Made by a program: the position numbers and the translations under genes. Below the pieces are notes generated by a model, which saw nothing but the letters and a program-made list of their open reading frames with translations, was not told the origin of the DNA and did no database searches. Source: Anaerofustis stercorihominis (GTDB lineage Bacteria > Bacillota > Clostridia > Eubacteriales > Anaerofustaceae). Taken from it: a DNA stretch of 64,000 bases. The stretch is from positions 248,001-312,000 of the forward strand of contig NZ_JANJZK010000001.1 of NCBI RefSeq assembly GCF_024623185.1. Reading direction: 5' to 3'. Below are positions 6,093 through 12,347 of this stretch, piece by piece (the first letter of the stretch is position 1; the number at the start of each line of letters is the position of its first letter).

Positions 6093-6464
6093 TTGAATAG
6101 TTTAATAATAGTTTTAGTATGTGTCGTTCTGGCAGTGTTGATTCAATTTTTACTTTGCAGATCCGACAATATTCTCATGGGACTAATAATCCCTGCGGTA
6201 TTTGCTTTGATTGCAATCATGATGAGTGTAGTAACAAAAGGAAACGGGCTTAATAAGTTTACGGAATTTGTTCAGTGGTTCTTACCGGGACTTATTGCTC
6301 TTATAATTTACTTCTTTACTAAAAAGAAAAAACATGATAAGAGAAAAGAAGAAAAAGAAGCTAGAAAAAAATTAAAAGAAGATAAAAAGCTTGCTCTTGA
6401 CTCTAATGACGATGACGAAGAAGTTGAGGAAGTAGAAGCTGAAATAATCGATGAAGATAATTAA
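6093..6464 (+). CDS. Small membrane protein with acidic cytoplasmic tail, unknown function
   Basis: This 123-residue protein starts at a TTG behind GGAGGAAA. It has three hydrophobic segments (about residues 3-20, 25-47 and 60-77), then a lysine-rich stretch (KKKKHDKRKEEKEARKK) and a strongly acidic C-terminus (DDDEEVEEVEAEIIDED). No family was recognised. It follows the M23 peptidase gene by 35 bases and precedes a terminator, so the two form a transcription unit. A cell-envelope role is possible but unproven. Confidence 0.6.
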   Translation: MNSLIIVLVCVVLAVLIQFLLCRSDNILMGLIIPAVFALIAIMMSVVTKGNGLNKFTEFVQWFLPGLIALIIYFFTKKKKHDKRKEEKEARKKLKEDKKLALDSNDDDEEVEEVEAEIIDEDN

Positions 6465-6465
6465 A

Positions 6466-6491
6466 AAGATCCGCTTTATGCGGATTTTTTA
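6466..6491 (+). terminator. Rho-independent terminator
   Basis: The stem ATCCGC (6469-6474) pairs with GCGGAT (6480-6485) around a TTTAT loop, followed by T6. It sits immediately after the stop codon of the small membrane protein. Confidence 0.85.
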
Positions 6492-6530: not shown

Positions 6531-6547
6531 TTCAATGTTATATTGAA
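6531..6547. promoter_or_regulatory. Inverted repeat overlapping a putative -35 of the nickel operon
   Basis: TTCAAT-N5-ATTGAA is a perfect interrupted palindrome that overlaps a TTGAAA (6543-6548) which could serve as a -35. An -10-like TAATAT follows at 6566-6571. A related TTTCAT-N7-ATGAAA lies at 6504-6522. These could bind a metal-responsive repressor, but no regulator is identified. Confidence 0.35.
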
Positions 6548-6574
6548 AATATTTCATAAAAATGATAATATGTT

Positions 6575-6687
6575 ATAGAAGCAGATACCACGAAGGTATT
6601 TTATATTAAAGTATTATTAAGAAATAATTCCACGAAGGATGATCCATTACATGAAGTAATGTCTTTCTTTCGTGTTTTTTTATGGGA
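6575..6687 (+). ncRNA. Structured attenuator-like leader of the nickel operon
   Basis: About 110 bases of leader carry two identical CCACGAAGG elements (6588-6596 and 6630-6638). Each is at the tip of a small hairpin: ATACC/GGTAT around ACGAA, and TCC/GGA around ACGAA. A third hairpin nests CATTAC/GTAATG inside CACGAA (6631-6636) pairing with TTCGTG (6669-6674) and ends in T7, an intrinsic terminator. It uses the same bases as the second small hairpin, so the two are mutually exclusive. The GGGAGGA site of nikM follows directly. This layout suggests a riboswitch or attenuator; I do not match it to a known class. Confidence 0.5.
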
Positions 6688-6697
6688 GGAAATAGTT

Positions 6698-7705
6698 ATG
6701 CATATGGCGGATGCTTTGGTGTCTCCTGCTGTGGGAGGTGCTATGATAACTGTAAGTGCTGGTGCACTTGCTTATTCGGTTAAGAAAATAAAAGAAGATG
6801 ATAATTTGGAGAAAAAGGTTCCGTTGATGGGAATTATGAGTGCATTTGTATTTGCGGCTCAAATGATTAATTTTACTATACCTATGACGGGTTCAAGCGG
6901 ACATATCGGGGGAGGTATACTTCTGTCTTTGATTTTAGGCGGTCCCGCGGCGTTTATATCCATATTTTCGGTGTTACTTATTCAGTGTTTGTTTTTTGCG
7001 GACGGGGGGGGGTTGGCTCTCGGATGTAATTTATTTAATATGGGTGTAATTCCTTGCTTTTTAATTTATCCTTATGTTATAAAGCCTATATTACAAAAGG
7101 GAATAAATAAGAAAAGTATTGGGGTTGCATCAATTCTCGGGTGCGTATTATCATTACAGTTAGGTGCTTTTATGGTTGTAATAGAAACTTTTTTTTCGGG
7201 GATAAGCGAACTTCCTTTTAATAAGTTCCTGATTTTAATGCAGCCGATACATTTAGCTATAGGACTTGTTGAAGGTATTGTAACTATGCTCGTAGTAGAC
7301 TTTATATTTAATCAACGAAAAGAAATTTTAGATGAGAGCATATTTAGTAAGAAAAGTAAAGCCAGTTTTAAAAAAGTCATTGTGTCTTTAAGTATTATTA
7401 CTCTTATTGTTGCAGGAGGGTTATCTCTTTTCGCTTCGTCAAATCCTGACGGTCTTGAATGGTCTGTTCAGGGGGTTACGGGAAGTACTGAGGTTGAAAA
7501 GGGAAACCATGATATTTATACTGCGATGAATAATATCCAAGAAAAGACGGCTTTTATGCCTGATTATAATTATAAGAATGAAAATAACGAAAGTTTAATA
7601 AGTGGAACATCTGTTGCCGGCGTAGTCGGAGGTGTAATAGTATTTATTTTCGCAGGTGTTATTGGGATAAGCGTATATAAAGTAAGGAAATTAAAAAGGT
7701 CATAA
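6698..7705 (+). CDS. nikM: ECF nickel/cobalt transporter substrate-binding component, NikM/CbiM with fused NikN-like part
   Basis: The 335-residue integral membrane protein starts at the ATG at 6698 behind GGGAGGA. It begins MHMADAL, and in CbiM/NikM the N-terminal Met-His coordinates the metal. TGSSGHIGGG and the FADGGGLALGCNLFNMG segment are family hallmarks. The C-terminal part (about 225-335), with two further helices and the sequence NPDGLEWSV, resembles NikN/CbiN, so this is a NikMN-type fusion. Its neighbours NikQ and NikO complete the transporter. The following lar genes favour nickel over cobalt. Codons 103-105 form part of an unusual G9 run. Confidence 0.88.
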   Translation: MHMADALVSPAVGGAMITVSAGALAYSVKKIKEDDNLEKKVPLMGIMSAFVFAAQMINFTIPMTGSSGHIGGGILLSLILGGPAAFISIFSVLLIQCLFFADGGGLALGCNLFNMGVIPCFLIYPYVIKPILQKGINKKSIGVASILGCVLSLQLGAFMVVIETFFSGISELPFNKFLILMQPIHLAIGLVEGIVTMLVVDFIFNQRKEILDESIFSKKSKASFKKVIVSLSIITLIVAGGLSLFASSNPDGLEWSVQGVTGSTEVEKGNHDIYTAMNNIQEKTAFMPDYNYKNENNESLISGTSVAGVVGGVIVFIFAGVIGISVYKVRKLKRS

Positions 7706-7726: not shown

Positions 7727-8497
7727 ATGGCGAATATAAGAACATCCTTAAATGATATTTATTTTATGGAAAATTTAGCAGACGATAACAGTTTTATCCA
7801 TTTACTTACACCTTCTGTTAAGGTATTTACGACTTTAGTTTTTATAATAGCTGTTATTTCAACTGCAAGTTATAATATTTTAAGGTTACTGTTTTTTTTA
7901 TTATATATAATTGTAGTGTCCATAATAAGTCAAACAGATAATAAACTATTGTTTAAAAGATATTTGATTGTCCTTCCGTTTTCTTTCTTTGTTGGTATCG
8001 GTAATATTTTTGTAAACAATAATGTTTATTATGAAATATTAAATATTCCAATTACCTTTGGATTTATATCTTTTATAGGTATAATTTTAAAATCTTACCT
8101 TACTGTAATGGCAGTGTTTTTACTTGTTTCAACTACTAGATTAAACGATATATTTGCTTTTATGGGAAATATAAAAGTTCCAAAGATTATTGTCAATGAG
8201 TTGAACCTTACATTCAGGTATATACATACTTTAGCCGATGAAGCAGGAAATATGTATACTTCATATATTTTAAGAAGTAACAGGAAAAAAGGTATAGATA
8301 TCAAAGATATGGGAAGTTTTCTCGGAAATTTACTCCTTAGAAGTGTGGATAAAGCTGATAAAGTATATCATGCAATGAAACTCAGAGGTTATAACGGCGA
8401 GTACAATTACAGTAAAATATATAAGTATTCAAAAAGAGATTATATTAGTTTTATAATCTTCTTTGTATATTTAGTAATAAGTTTTTATTTTATTTAA
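7727..8497 (+). CDS. nikQ: ECF transporter transmembrane (T) component, NikQ/CbiQ
   Basis: This 256-residue membrane protein has several hydrophobic helices in its N-terminal half. A cytoplasmic coupling region near residues 180-225 includes the MKLRGYNGEY segment, a T-component signature that contacts the ATPases. The AAAGGAG site is 7 bases from the start. The gene lies 21 bases after nikM and 10 bases before the ATPase gene. By family knowledge it couples ATP hydrolysis by NikO to nickel transfer through NikM. Confidence 0.88.
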   Translation: MANIRTSLNDIYFMENLADDNSFIHLLTPSVKVFTTLVFIIAVISTASYNILRLLFFLLYIIVVSIISQTDNKLLFKRYLIVLPFSFFVGIGNIFVNNNVYYEILNIPITFGFISFIGIILKSYLTVMAVFLLVSTTRLNDIFAFMGNIKVPKIIVNELNLTFRYIHTLADEAGNMYTSYILRSNRKKGIDIKDMGSFLGNLLLRSVDKADKVYHAMKLRGYNGEYNYSKIYKYSKRDYISFIIFFVYLVISFYFI

Positions 8498-8507
8498 AGG
8501 AGCGTTA

Positions 8508-9200
8508 ATGATAAGTATAAAAGATTTAAATATAAAATATCCCGACGGAACAAATGCACTAAATAATTTAAATTTAGATATAAGTGACAATGAAAATATA
8601 GGCTTGCTTGGTGCAAACGGTGCCGGGAAATCCACCTTATTTTTAAGTATGCTTGGAGTTATTCCAATAGCTGACGGAAGTATAACCATAGATGACAGTG
8701 AAGTAAATAAAAACAATATCGATAAAATAAGAAGGGAAGTCGGGCTTATATTTCAAAATCCCGATGACCAACTGTTTTCTTCTACTGTATACGATGATGT
8801 TGCCTTTGCTTTAAATAATTTAAATATGAATAAATATGATGTTAAAAATATAGTGTACGATATATTAAATAAACTCGGTATTTATCATTTAAAAGATAAG
8901 GCTGTTTATAAGCTTTCCGGAGGAGAAAAAAGAAGTGCCTGCATTGCTTCTATATTGGTACAAAATCCCAATATTATATTATTTGATGAACCAACTTCTT
9001 ATTTAGACAGAAAATCAAAAAGAAAATTGATTGAAATAATAAATTCTATTAATTCCACTAAACTTATTGCTTCCCATGACTTTGATTTAATAAAAGAAAC
9101 TTGTACAAGGATTGTTATTTTAAAAAATGGAAGTGTATATTATAATGGAAATATGGATGTACTAAATAATGAAGAATTTCTTATGGAGGCAGGATTATGA
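8508..9200 (+). CDS. nikO: ECF nickel transporter ATP-binding protein NikO/CbiO
   Basis: The 230-residue ABC ATPase shows Walker A GANGAGKST (residues 35-43), a Q-loop in IFQNPDDQLFS, the signature KLSGGEKR, Walker B IILFDEPTSYLD and the switch histidine in IASHDFD. It is slightly shorter than usual (about 270) at the C-terminus. The single ATPase gene implies a homodimer. The next gene, larE, starts inside its last codons (4-base overlap), which points to translational coupling of nickel import with cofactor synthesis. Confidence 0.9.
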   Translation: MISIKDLNIKYPDGTNALNNLNLDISDNENIGLLGANGAGKSTLFLSMLGVIPIADGSITIDDSEVNKNNIDKIRREVGLIFQNPDDQLFSSTVYDDVAFALNNLNMNKYDVKNIVYDILNKLGIYHLKDKAVYKLSGGEKRSACIASILVQNPNIILFDEPTSYLDRKSKRKLIEIINSINSTKLIASHDFDLIKETCTRIVILKNGSVYYNGNMDVLNNEEFLMEAGL

Positions 9201-9943
9201 CCCTTGAAGAATTTTTTAAGTATTATAAAAAAGTTGCTTTGGCTTTTTCAGGAGGTGTTGATTCCTCTTATCTTTTATACATATTAAAAAAATTAAATAT
9301 AGAATCTACGGCTTATTTTGTGAAAAGTGAGTTTCAGCCTGACTTTGAATTAAAAGAGAGTATTACTCTTGCAACTAAACTTGGTGCGGACCTAAAAATA
9401 ATAGATAATCCTATTTTAGATGAAGAAAAGATTATAAATAATGATGTTAGCCGGTGTTATTACTGTAAGCAGAATATTTTTTCCCATATTATAAAAGCGG
9501 CTAAGCAGGATGGATATAATATCATAATCGACGGAACGAACGCTACGGATGATGAAAGTGACCGCCCCGGAATGAAAGCACTTAAAGAAATGAAGATTTT
9601 ATCCCCGTTAAAAATATGTTCTCTTACAAAACAGGATATAAGGTCCTTATCAAAAGAAGCCGGGCTTCCTACTTGGGATAAGCCTTCTTACTCTTGCCTT
9701 GCGACAAGGATAAGCACTGGAGAGAAAATAAAAAAAGATACTCTTGTTAAAATAGAAAAAAGTGAGTCCTATTTATTTAAACTGGGATTTAAGGATTTTA
9801 GGATAAGAGTTAAAAATAATAGTGCGGTAATTCAAGTGAAAGAAAAAGATTTTATAAAAGTCATGGAAAACAGAGACAGGATATTAAAAACGATATCTCA
9901 TATGTTTGATGAAATCAGTTTGGATTTAAGACCAAGAAGGTAA
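9197..9943 (+). CDS. larE: LarE, ATP-dependent sacrificial sulfur transferase of nickel-pincer cofactor synthesis
   Basis: The 248-residue PP-loop protein has SGGVDSS at 18-24, the adenylating motif, and YSCLATRIS with Cys167, which aligns with the cysteine that donates its sulfur in Lactiplantibacillus LarE. The family adenylates the dicarboxylated pyridinium precursor made by LarB and converts its carboxylates to thiocarboxylates. The CYYCKQNIF segment is also typical. The gene overlaps nikO by 4 bases and lies 7 bases before larB, so the order here is larE-larB-larC. Confidence 0.9.
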   Translation: MTLEEFFKYYKKVALAFSGGVDSSYLLYILKKLNIESTAYFVKSEFQPDFELKESITLATKLGADLKIIDNPILDEEKIINNDVSRCYYCKQNIFSHIIKAAKQDGYNIIIDGTNATDDESDRPGMKALKEMKILSPLKICSLTKQDIRSLSKEAGLPTWDKPSYSCLATRISTGEKIKKDTLVKIEKSESYLFKLGFKDFRIRVKNNSAVIQVKEKDFIKVMENRDRILKTISHMFDEISLDLRPRR

Positions 9944-9949
9944 AGTGAT

Positions 9950-10714
9950 ATGAATAGTAAAGAAGGATTAAAAGACTTACTTAAGAAAGTTAAAAATAAT
10001 GAGATATCAATCGATGACGCTGTAGTAAAACTCAAAATGAAACCTTTCAGTGATATCGGATATGCAAAGATCGATAATCATCGTTCTATAAGACAAGGCG
10101 TATCGGAAGTCATTTACGGAGAAAAAAAGACAGCAAAGCAAATCCTTGGCATTGTAAACGGCATGAGAGATAACGGAAGTGAAAATATACTTATTACAAG
10201 AATTGATGAAAATAAGTATAAAAAATTGAAGGATAGTATAGATATTGTGTACTATGACAAAGCTAAAATGGGTATAGCTTACGAAAATAAGGATATAGAT
10301 AAAGTCGGGAAAATTGTTATTGCCGCGGCGGGTACCAGCGATATAGATGTATGTGAAGAAGCCTATATTACCGCATCTACCCTTGGTAGCAATGTTGAGA
10401 GGCTTTATGATGTAGGAGTGGCGGGACTTCACAGATTACTAAATAATTTGGATGTTTTGATGTCTGCACGAGTAATAATCGTGGTTGCTGGAATGGAAGG
10501 TGCTTTGGCAAGCGTTGTCGGAGGGCTGGTTGACTGTCCCGTTATTGCCGTTCCGACAAGTGTTGGGTACGGTGCTAATTTCGGCGGACTTTCTGCTCTT
10601 CTCTCGATGCTTAATTCCTGTGCAAGCGGAGTTAGTGTAGTGAATATTGATAATGGTTTCGGTGCAGGATATCTTGCGAATATGATAAACAAAATGGAGG
10701 GTATTGATGAATAG
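9950..10714 (+). CDS. larB: LarB, pyridinium-3,5-biscarboxylic acid mononucleotide synthase
   Basis: The 254-residue protein has an N-terminal regulatory-like half and a C-terminal PurE-like half: IVIAAAGTSDIDVCEEAY near residue 122, VERLYDVGVAGLHRLL, then VVAGMEGALASVVGGL and PTSVGYGANFGG. LarB carboxylates and hydrolyses nicotinic acid adenine dinucleotide to start nickel-pincer nucleotide synthesis. The stop codon overlaps the larC start by 8 bases. Confidence 0.92.
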   Translation: MNSKEGLKDLLKKVKNNEISIDDAVVKLKMKPFSDIGYAKIDNHRSIRQGVSEVIYGEKKTAKQILGIVNGMRDNGSENILITRIDENKYKKLKDSIDIVYYDKAKMGIAYENKDIDKVGKIVIAAAGTSDIDVCEEAYITASTLGSNVERLYDVGVAGLHRLLNNLDVLMSARVIIVVAGMEGALASVVGGLVDCPVIAVPTSVGYGANFGGLSALLSMLNSCASGVSVVNIDNGFGAGYLANMINKMEGIDE

Positions 10715-12347
10715 CTTATATATAGAATGTAACAGCGGTGCGGCAGGCGATATGTTAATGGCTGCACTTTTGGATTTATATGATGATAAAGAAGATTTTT
10801 TATACAAGATGAATAATCTCGGTCTTGAAAATGTAAGTGTAAGTTTTAGAGAAGAAAAGAGAAATGGTATAACTGGGAAAAAAATCATCGTAACCGTTGA
10901 TGGTGTAGAGGAAGAAAGCCTTGATGTAATAGATAATAAACAAGAACATCATGAACATGAAGGTAACCATGAAGATGATTTAATTCTAGACAGTTTTTAT
11001 GCTTTTGAAGGCGGATATCATGATTTTTTAAACAGCAGAAACGAAAATAAAATTGATATTAGTGAAGAAATAAAAAAAGAAGTAAAAGAACCTACTTTCC
11101 CCGCAGATAGTTTATATGCTTTCGAAGAAAGCTACAGCGATTTTTTGAATGACAGAAGTAGAACTATAGAACATGAACATCATCATATTCCTGAAAGAGC
11201 CGAAGAAAAAATAGAAATAAAACACGATGAAAAAAATGAGGATATTTCATTTCCGGCAGACGGGCTATATGCCTTTGAGGTAGGATTTGACGATTATCTT
11301 AAGGCACGTGAAACTTTACATTCTCATCACGAGCATGACTGTGGTCATGAACATTATCATCATGGACATGCTCATAACCATGAACCTTTACATGTACATG
11401 GACATCACCATAAGCATAATCATAATGACATCAAACATATCAATAATATAATAGATAAGTTAAATTTAAGTAAAAATGTGAAACATCATGCTAAAGAAAT
11501 ATATAATCTTATTCTTAAAGCTGAAGCCAAGGCTCATGGGTGCAGTGTAGATAAAGTTCATTTTCATGAAGTGGGAAATTTGGATGCTATAGTTGATATT
11601 GTAGGTGTATGTTATTTAATAGATAAATTAGATATAGATAATATTATTTGTTCTCCTTTAAATGTCGGATACGGAAATGTAAGGACCGCTCATGGTATAC
11701 TTCCGGTTCCTGCTCCGGCAACTGCGTATATATTAAGAGATGTTCCTACTTATACGAACGAAGAAAAAGGTGAACTTACAACACCGACGGGAGCTGCTAT
11801 TTTAAAACATTTCGTTAAAGAGTTTACAAACAGAAGAAACATGACTTATGAAAAGATAGGATACGGTTTAGGTAAAAAAGAGCTAAAATCCGCTAATTTT
11901 GTTAGGGTATTTCTAGGTAAAATCAATGATGAGGATAAACTTAAAGATAAAATATTTAAGCTTTCATGTAATATAGACGATATGACGGGAGAGGAAATCG
12001 GACTTGCTATTGATAAACTGTGGGATAACGGTGCCCTTGATGTGTATACAATCCCCGTAAATATGAAGAAAAACCGTCCGGGGGTAATACTCGAAGTACT
12101 AATGAAAGAAGAAGTTGAAGAAAGATTATTGAATGTTATCATGAAATATACTTCTACCTTTGGAGTCAGAAGAAGCGAATATGACAGGTATATATTAAAT
12201 AGAACTTTTAAAGAAAAAGAAACGAAGTACGGAAGTATAAAAGAAAAAGTCGGTAGCGGATACGGTATTGAAAAAAGCAAGTTAGAATTCGATGACTTAA
12301 AAGAAGTTTCGGATAAATATAAAATCCCAATAAGAGATATAAAATAA
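10707..12347 (+). CDS. larC: LarC, nickel insertase for the pincer cofactor, with long His-rich repeat insert
   Basis: The 546-residue protein starts at the ATG at 10707 (GGAGGG site); the N-terminal YIECNSGAAGDMLMAAL and the HFHEVGNLDAIVDIVG segment (about 285-300) identify LarC. LarC uses CTP to insert nickel between the two thiocarboxylates. It is a single continuous frame, unlike L. plantarum larC1/larC2, which needs a frameshift. Residues about 75-240 form a large insert: three imperfect copies of a YAFE-x3-x-D-(F/Y)-L module (about 95-112, 133-150 and 182-200), then a cluster of about 18 histidines in 35 residues (205-239), probably a metal store or docking site. A terminator follows. 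Confidence 0.92.
   Translation: MNSLYIECNSGAAGDMLMAALLDLYDDKEDFLYKMNNLGLENVSVSFREEKRNGITGKKIIVTVDGVEEESLDVIDNKQEHHEHEGNHEDDLILDSFYAFEGGYHDFLNSRNENKIDISEEIKKEVKEPTFPADSLYAFEESYSDFLNDRSRTIEHEHHHIPERAEEKIEIKHDEKNEDISFPADGLYAFEVGFDDYLKARETLHSHHEHDCGHEHYHHGHAHNHEPLHVHGHHHKHNHNDIKHINNIIDKLNLSKNVKHHAKEIYNLILKAEAKAHGCSVDKVHFHEVGNLDAIVDIVGVCYLIDKLDIDNIICSPLNVGYGNVRTAHGILPVPAPATAYILRDVPTYTNEEKGELTTPTGAAILKHFVKEFTNRRNMTYEKIGYGLGKKELKSANFVRVFLGKINDEDKLKDKIFKLSCNIDDMTGEEIGLAIDKLWDNGALDVYTIPVNMKKNRPGVILEVLMKEEVEERLLNVIMKYTSTFGVRRSEYDRYILNRTFKEKETKYGSIKEKVGSGYGIEKSKLEFDDLKEVSDKYKIPIRDIK

Follow-up and report, generated by a model that had tools for sequence, protein, structure and literature searches.

The window (the whole stretch of DNA analysed, 64,000 nucleotides) carries on its forward strand an operon in the order nikM(N)-nikQ-nikO-larE-larB-larC. 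The product of nikM (6698-7705) matches CbiM (PF01891) and PF13190, with a fused NikN-type PDGLE domain, and is followed by nikQ (7727-8497, CbiQ family PF02361) and nikO (8508-9200), an ABC ATPase by its domain match. The frame at 9197-9943 encodes a larE-like PP-loop protein, with weak PP-loop/HUP Pfam matches and a name taken mainly from the lar gene order, and larB (9950-10714) belongs to the AIR carboxylase family PF00731. The last gene, larC (10704-12347; TIGR00299 and NF052512 above cut-off), is a LarC1-LarC2 fusion: both parts share one frame, which carries a long His-rich insert, whereas the larC of Lactobacillus is frameshifted.

The leader of this operon, also on the forward strand, begins near a candidate sigma-70-type promoter (6543-6571), called from a consensus scan only, with TTGAAA, a 17-nt spacer and a TG directly 5' of TAATAT. 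A strong intrinsic terminator of the gene 5' of the nik leader lies at 6464-6490. Two hairpins follow the promoter: P1 (6583-6601; AGATACC-ACGAA-GGTATTT, 7 pairs, C-ACGAA-G loop), which was found by folding and has counterparts of the same class in other leaders, and P2, the antiterminator (6629-6639; TCC-ACGAA-GGA, 3 pairs), which is kept in nikM leaders and supported by covariation. A preliminary description of this DNA had placed ACGAA loops in identical 9-mers at 6588-6596 and 6630-6638, and we confirmed that these are the only two copies of CCACGAAGG in the window, where 0.07 matches were expected and no shuffle contained two. It had also reported a third hairpin that reuses the second 9-mer, runs into T7 and ends before the nikM ribosome site. 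This corresponds to an intrinsic terminator (6631-6681) in which 6631-6639 pairs with 6666-6674 (9 pairs), followed by T7 at 6675-6681 and ending 5' of the ribosome-binding site GGGAGG (6684-6689) and the nikM ATG (6698). Overlooked at that stage was the apical hairpin of the terminator (6645-6661; CATTAC-ATGAA-GTAATG), seen in sequence and fold, which presents a third C-AYGAA-G loop. P2 and the terminator share the same bases and are mutually exclusive, as read from the alternative pairing, and the RNA 5' of nikM can fold either as two small hairpins or as a transcription terminator. The minimum-free-energy fold is P1 plus the terminator. The folding energy alone is ordinary (z = -1.6; 12 of 200 shuffles equally good); the significance of the leader comes from its conservation.

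By protein search, 44 of 61 relatives have nikM-type genes. A second species of the genus (G002) has the same twin 9-mer leader; G001, of the same genus, has neither nikM nor this leader. Among nikM leaders, the P2-plus-terminator element was found in that second species and at about 17 further loci from two other families, with a core of C-AYGAA-G in which the loop is constant while the stems vary (CC/GG, UC/GA and so on). The paired elements, whose conservation upstream of related nikM genes had been proposed as a check, are both conserved and covarying. In relatives free of the element (L006, L024, L025, L027-L030), an ACCCCC..GGGGG palindrome lies near the nikM promoter. It resembles a CsoR/RcnR/InrS-type operator, and from sequence RNA control appears to have been swapped there for control by a DNA repressor.

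A first covariance model, built from nikM leaders with the terminator pairs as its only structure, was run on 67 genomes of the order. It recovered nikM leaders and, in the same genomes, the leaders of operons that combine a SAM methyltransferase with Nik/Opp ABC genes, of MATE exporters, of a CsoR/RcnR-type metal sensor and of CobN/ChlI clusters; in another family it found leaders of nikABCDE-like operons running on into larE. Additional matches with E above 0.01, in G002 and the window's own genome, are weak and were rejected as chance, since they fall inside unrelated coding sequence or have no core. A second model, run on 391 genomes of the class, gave matches in 31 genomes from about a dozen further families. 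The strict filters of these scans lose weak matches. Nearly all of these lie directly 5' of metal-transport-type genes: an ECF S-component gene (PF12822) accompanied by a gene for a methyltransferase or kinase-like protein, CbiM, nikA-type genes, or a metallophore-type binding protein. AUACC-ACGAA-GGUAU, the P1 sequence of the window, serves as P2 in many of these class-level leaders. Two of the 31 (G269 and G437) are weak matches with no convincing P2.

Two further features were seen at loci under the element. At L100, L105, L106, L067 and L128, it precedes members of an ECF S-component family (PF12822, LPMHIPVLLCGF) whose partner is a SAM methyltransferase or a kinase-like protein; at some loci this family stands beside nikMQO, and its substrate is probably related to nickel, cobalt or a metallophore. 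The methyltransferase leaders L064-L069 and L078 have a conserved AATACNNGTATATACAA palindrome between promoter and P2, which may serve as a DNA operator or else compete with P2 as an alternative hairpin.

P2 pairing was not part of the search model, which did build in some of the loop invariance. Over 33 distinct 17-mers, 76.8% of cells were paired compared with 63.4 +/- 1.9 in shuffles, there were 33 double-change cells compared with 12.5, and the covariation score was 0.475 compared with 0.216 (0 of 500 shuffles in each case), while controls with P2 slid along the sequence reached at most 41% paired. For P1, which was in no model, the 110 nt upstream was scanned for hairpins with 5 pairs or more and a C-(A)NGAA-G loop. 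Of the 66 non-redundant leaders, 22 had one; dinucleotide shuffles gave 0.13 on average and never more than 2, and reversed sequences gave 0. Some of these leaders had been viewed before the pattern was set, which makes the precise count somewhat flattering, but the gap is very wide. Examples are UUAACC-AUGAA-GGUUAA, GCCGGC-AUGAA-GCCGGC, GCAAUC-AAGAA-GAUUGC and GCCGAC-CGAA-GUCGGC. The two thirds of leaders that fail this strict test have looser P1-like hairpins or none, and many, such as the methyltransferase ones, have only a single small P2 hairpin (mostly 3-6 pairs). In both P1 and P2, a conserved C-(A)NGAA-G loop caps an RNA hairpin. The median energy of P2 is -3.4 kcal/mol (-1.8 in the window), and that of the terminator is -21.5 kcal/mol (-16.4 in the window).

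DUF3842 was first picked out as a recurrent neighbour of element loci. Across the 391 genomes of the class, it is encoded in 29 of the 31 motif genomes compared with 106 of the 360 others (Fisher p = 1e-12); by genus, a count that controls only partly for kinship, the figures are 21 of 23 with the motif and 71 of 199 without (p = 2e-7). The motif carriers lacking it are G269 and G437, the two weak matches. Within the genus, motif and DUF3842 are both present in G000 and G002 and both absent from G001. The gene orders are motif-nikA-DUF3842-cooT in Heliorestis acidaminivorans, motif-nikM-nikO-DUF3842-cooT in Bacillus marasmi (where the RNA match is weak by itself, E = 0.03) and motif-nikA-DUF3842-larC-larE-larB in Mobilitalea sibirica; a Peptococcaceae genome has a weak motif match directly 5' of DUF3842. 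CooT, a relative of which is in the PDB (6fan), adjoins DUF3842 in 33 of 80 named loci. The AlphaFold model of DUF3842, a confident one (pLDDT 94.7), has a small nucleotide-binding-like alpha/beta fold and no known RNA-binding fold, and Foldseek returned general nucleotide-binding-type folds only. The strict co-occurrence suggests a protein factor, and DUF3842 is tied both to nickel and to this RNA, with a putative RNA-binding role. The gene is also found without a detected motif, in the 106 genomes above and in Nitrospirae loci beside CooT, and may simply be a nickel-metabolism protein. The literature searched, covering few subscription journals, contains no mention of DUF3842.

Other DUF3842 loci were also observed. 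At L153, L154 and L157, DUF3842 and cooT stand 3' of acetyl-CoA synthase-like and His-rich genes, and in these copies of DUF3842 the NxC cysteine that is common near the C-terminus of others is missing. Outside Bacillota, a Spirochaetaceae MAG (L214) has a DUF3842-nikM-nikO-larE-larC-larB cluster.

We consider it probable that the element is a metal-uptake attenuator, most likely for nickel, that is read at its loops by a trans-acting factor, with DUF3842 as the best candidate for that factor or its partner. Mutually exclusive terminator and antiterminator structures stand 5' of uptake genes. P2 is weak and the terminator strong, and therefore termination should be the default and P2 must be held for read-through. 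Unaided, the RNA would form the strong terminator and the nik/lar operon would be off; a trans-acting factor would read the P2 loop, and the P1 loop where there is one, and would hold P2 against the terminator. DUF3842 (PF12953), a small Rossmann-like protein, could be this factor or a necessary partner of it. Because the targets are import genes, read-through would be most useful at metal scarcity, and the proposed direction is that scarce nickel would lead to P2 being held and the operon being read through. We infer nickel rather than cobalt mainly from the lar genes and the NikA-type and nik genes; some targets are instead ECF-S genes of unassigned substrate, which counts against this preference. 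A broader proposal is more tentative, and we put it forward as possible rather than probable: DUF3842 would found a new class of RNA-binding antiterminators, sensing nickel directly, via CooT or via the pincer cofactor, reading C-(A)NGAA-G twin hairpins, and serving an RNA-level nickel-uptake regulon across Clostridia-type bacteria.

The initial inference had been a metal- or cofactor-responsive riboswitch or attenuator. Attenuation of nik and pincer-synthesis genes has stood up, and the part that has lost ground, given the P2-only leaders and the co-occurrence of DUF3842, is the RNA itself acting as a riboswitch. Under that explanation, the P1 and P2 loops would jointly bind a pincer-cofactor intermediate, Ni2+ or Co2+, and would switch between P2 and terminator protein-free, in a guanidine-II-like manner. 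This would suit the near-identical loops on tandem small hairpins, the variable linker, the terminator overlap and the loop invariance, with DUF3842 merely a co-regulated nickel protein. We nevertheless regard it as rather unlikely: the small P2 hairpin is all that many leaders have, P2 is far weaker than the terminator, and the loops of most members do not have the self-complementary CG of guanidine-II. The ordinary folding energy would agree with a simple constitutive terminator or with chance repeats in a DNA operator, and we give this almost no credence in view of the compensatory P2 changes around an invariant loop, the P1 enrichment and the near-exclusive siting 5' of metal-transport genes in unrelated families. 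A plain terminator is refuted, and P2 covariation refutes a DNA operator. The predominance of AUGAAG among the loops suggested leader-peptide attenuation, which was rejected as well: the window reads ACGAAG, AAGAA and AGGAA occur among P1 loops, and the loops have no visible ribosome site 5' of them.

Two named proteins were weighed against DUF3842 as the factor. CooT binds nickel, according to published work, and its frequent position next to DUF3842 (33 of the 80 named loci) would fit an RNA-binding nickel sensor. That role is very improbable: the window's own genome, G002 and 17 of 20 class-level motif genomes have no CooT, and its absence from carriers excludes it as the general factor. 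Antitermination by an ANTAR protein, with the dual hairpins as its targets, would explain the shared layout of a hairpin pair whose second member overlaps a terminator (PMC3369931), and the window's own genome does have an ANTAR protein gene. The loops differ, however, with hexaloops carrying A1 and G4 in the ANTAR targets (PMC3369931) and (A)NGAA here. Of the 22 motif genomes that were tested, 10 lack PF03861, G013 and G021 among them, and the absence of ANTAR genes from carriers largely refutes this explanation, leaving it a negligible probability. A loop-reading factor for which DUF3842 is the best candidate remains the reading that we prefer.

Nickel is required by hydrogenases, CO dehydrogenase, acetyl-CoA synthase, urease and lactate racemase, many of which are central in acetogens and gut Clostridia. 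The element offers a defined short RNA with metal-uptake targets in about 15 families of the class, together with a candidate protein partner, and nickel homeostasis in these organisms becomes directly testable at the RNA level. It also helps to assign roles to the ECF S-component and methyltransferase families found under it, and gives DUF3842 its first functional handle.

To place the element among known RNAs, we compared the leaders with Rfam. There was no relevant match for the window leader at gathering or permissive thresholds (E up to 10), nor in 22 other loci that included representatives of other families, and the match to a known riboswitch family that the preliminary description had named as a refutation was not found. 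No description of this RNA was found in the literature searched, again with few subscription journals covered. CooT and DUF3842 are nickel-associated genes that neighbour the target operons of the element, with no link to RNA control in that literature. The NiCo riboswitch shares the association with Ni/Co transport, but that class controls export genes and has a larger four-stem aptamer; the preliminary description had set it aside, and indeed no covariance-model match to it was found in the leader. The guanidine families likewise gave no covariance-model match at E up to 10 or at gathering scores. Guanidine-II (mini-ykkC) also has two small hairpins, and the ACGAA members here have loops like its ACGR; the resemblance noted at the outset does not extend to membership, as the element has one extra loop base (A), a second base that varies among C, U, A and G (mostly U), an overlapping terminator and metal-uptake genes. 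With the extra A and the variable second base, the C-G loop-loop pairing of guanidine-II cannot form in general. Guanidine-IV is similar in being Clostridial, in controlling terminator read-through by competing folds and in sometimes lying 5' of MATE genes, but it gave no Rfam match, and the AUGAA-type loops here are without kissing-loop complementarity. The dual hairpin targets of ANTAR proteins (EutV/NasR/AmiR) are alike in having two small hairpins joined by a variable linker, a second hairpin that overlaps an intrinsic terminator, and loop bases conserved over stem sequence. Their loops are hexanucleotides in which the first base is A and the fourth is G (PMC3369931), whereas here P2 has AYGAA and P1 (A)NGAA, and ANTAR genes are missing from many carriers. 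The element belongs to none of the families tested and would work like the known tandem-hairpin antitermination leaders.
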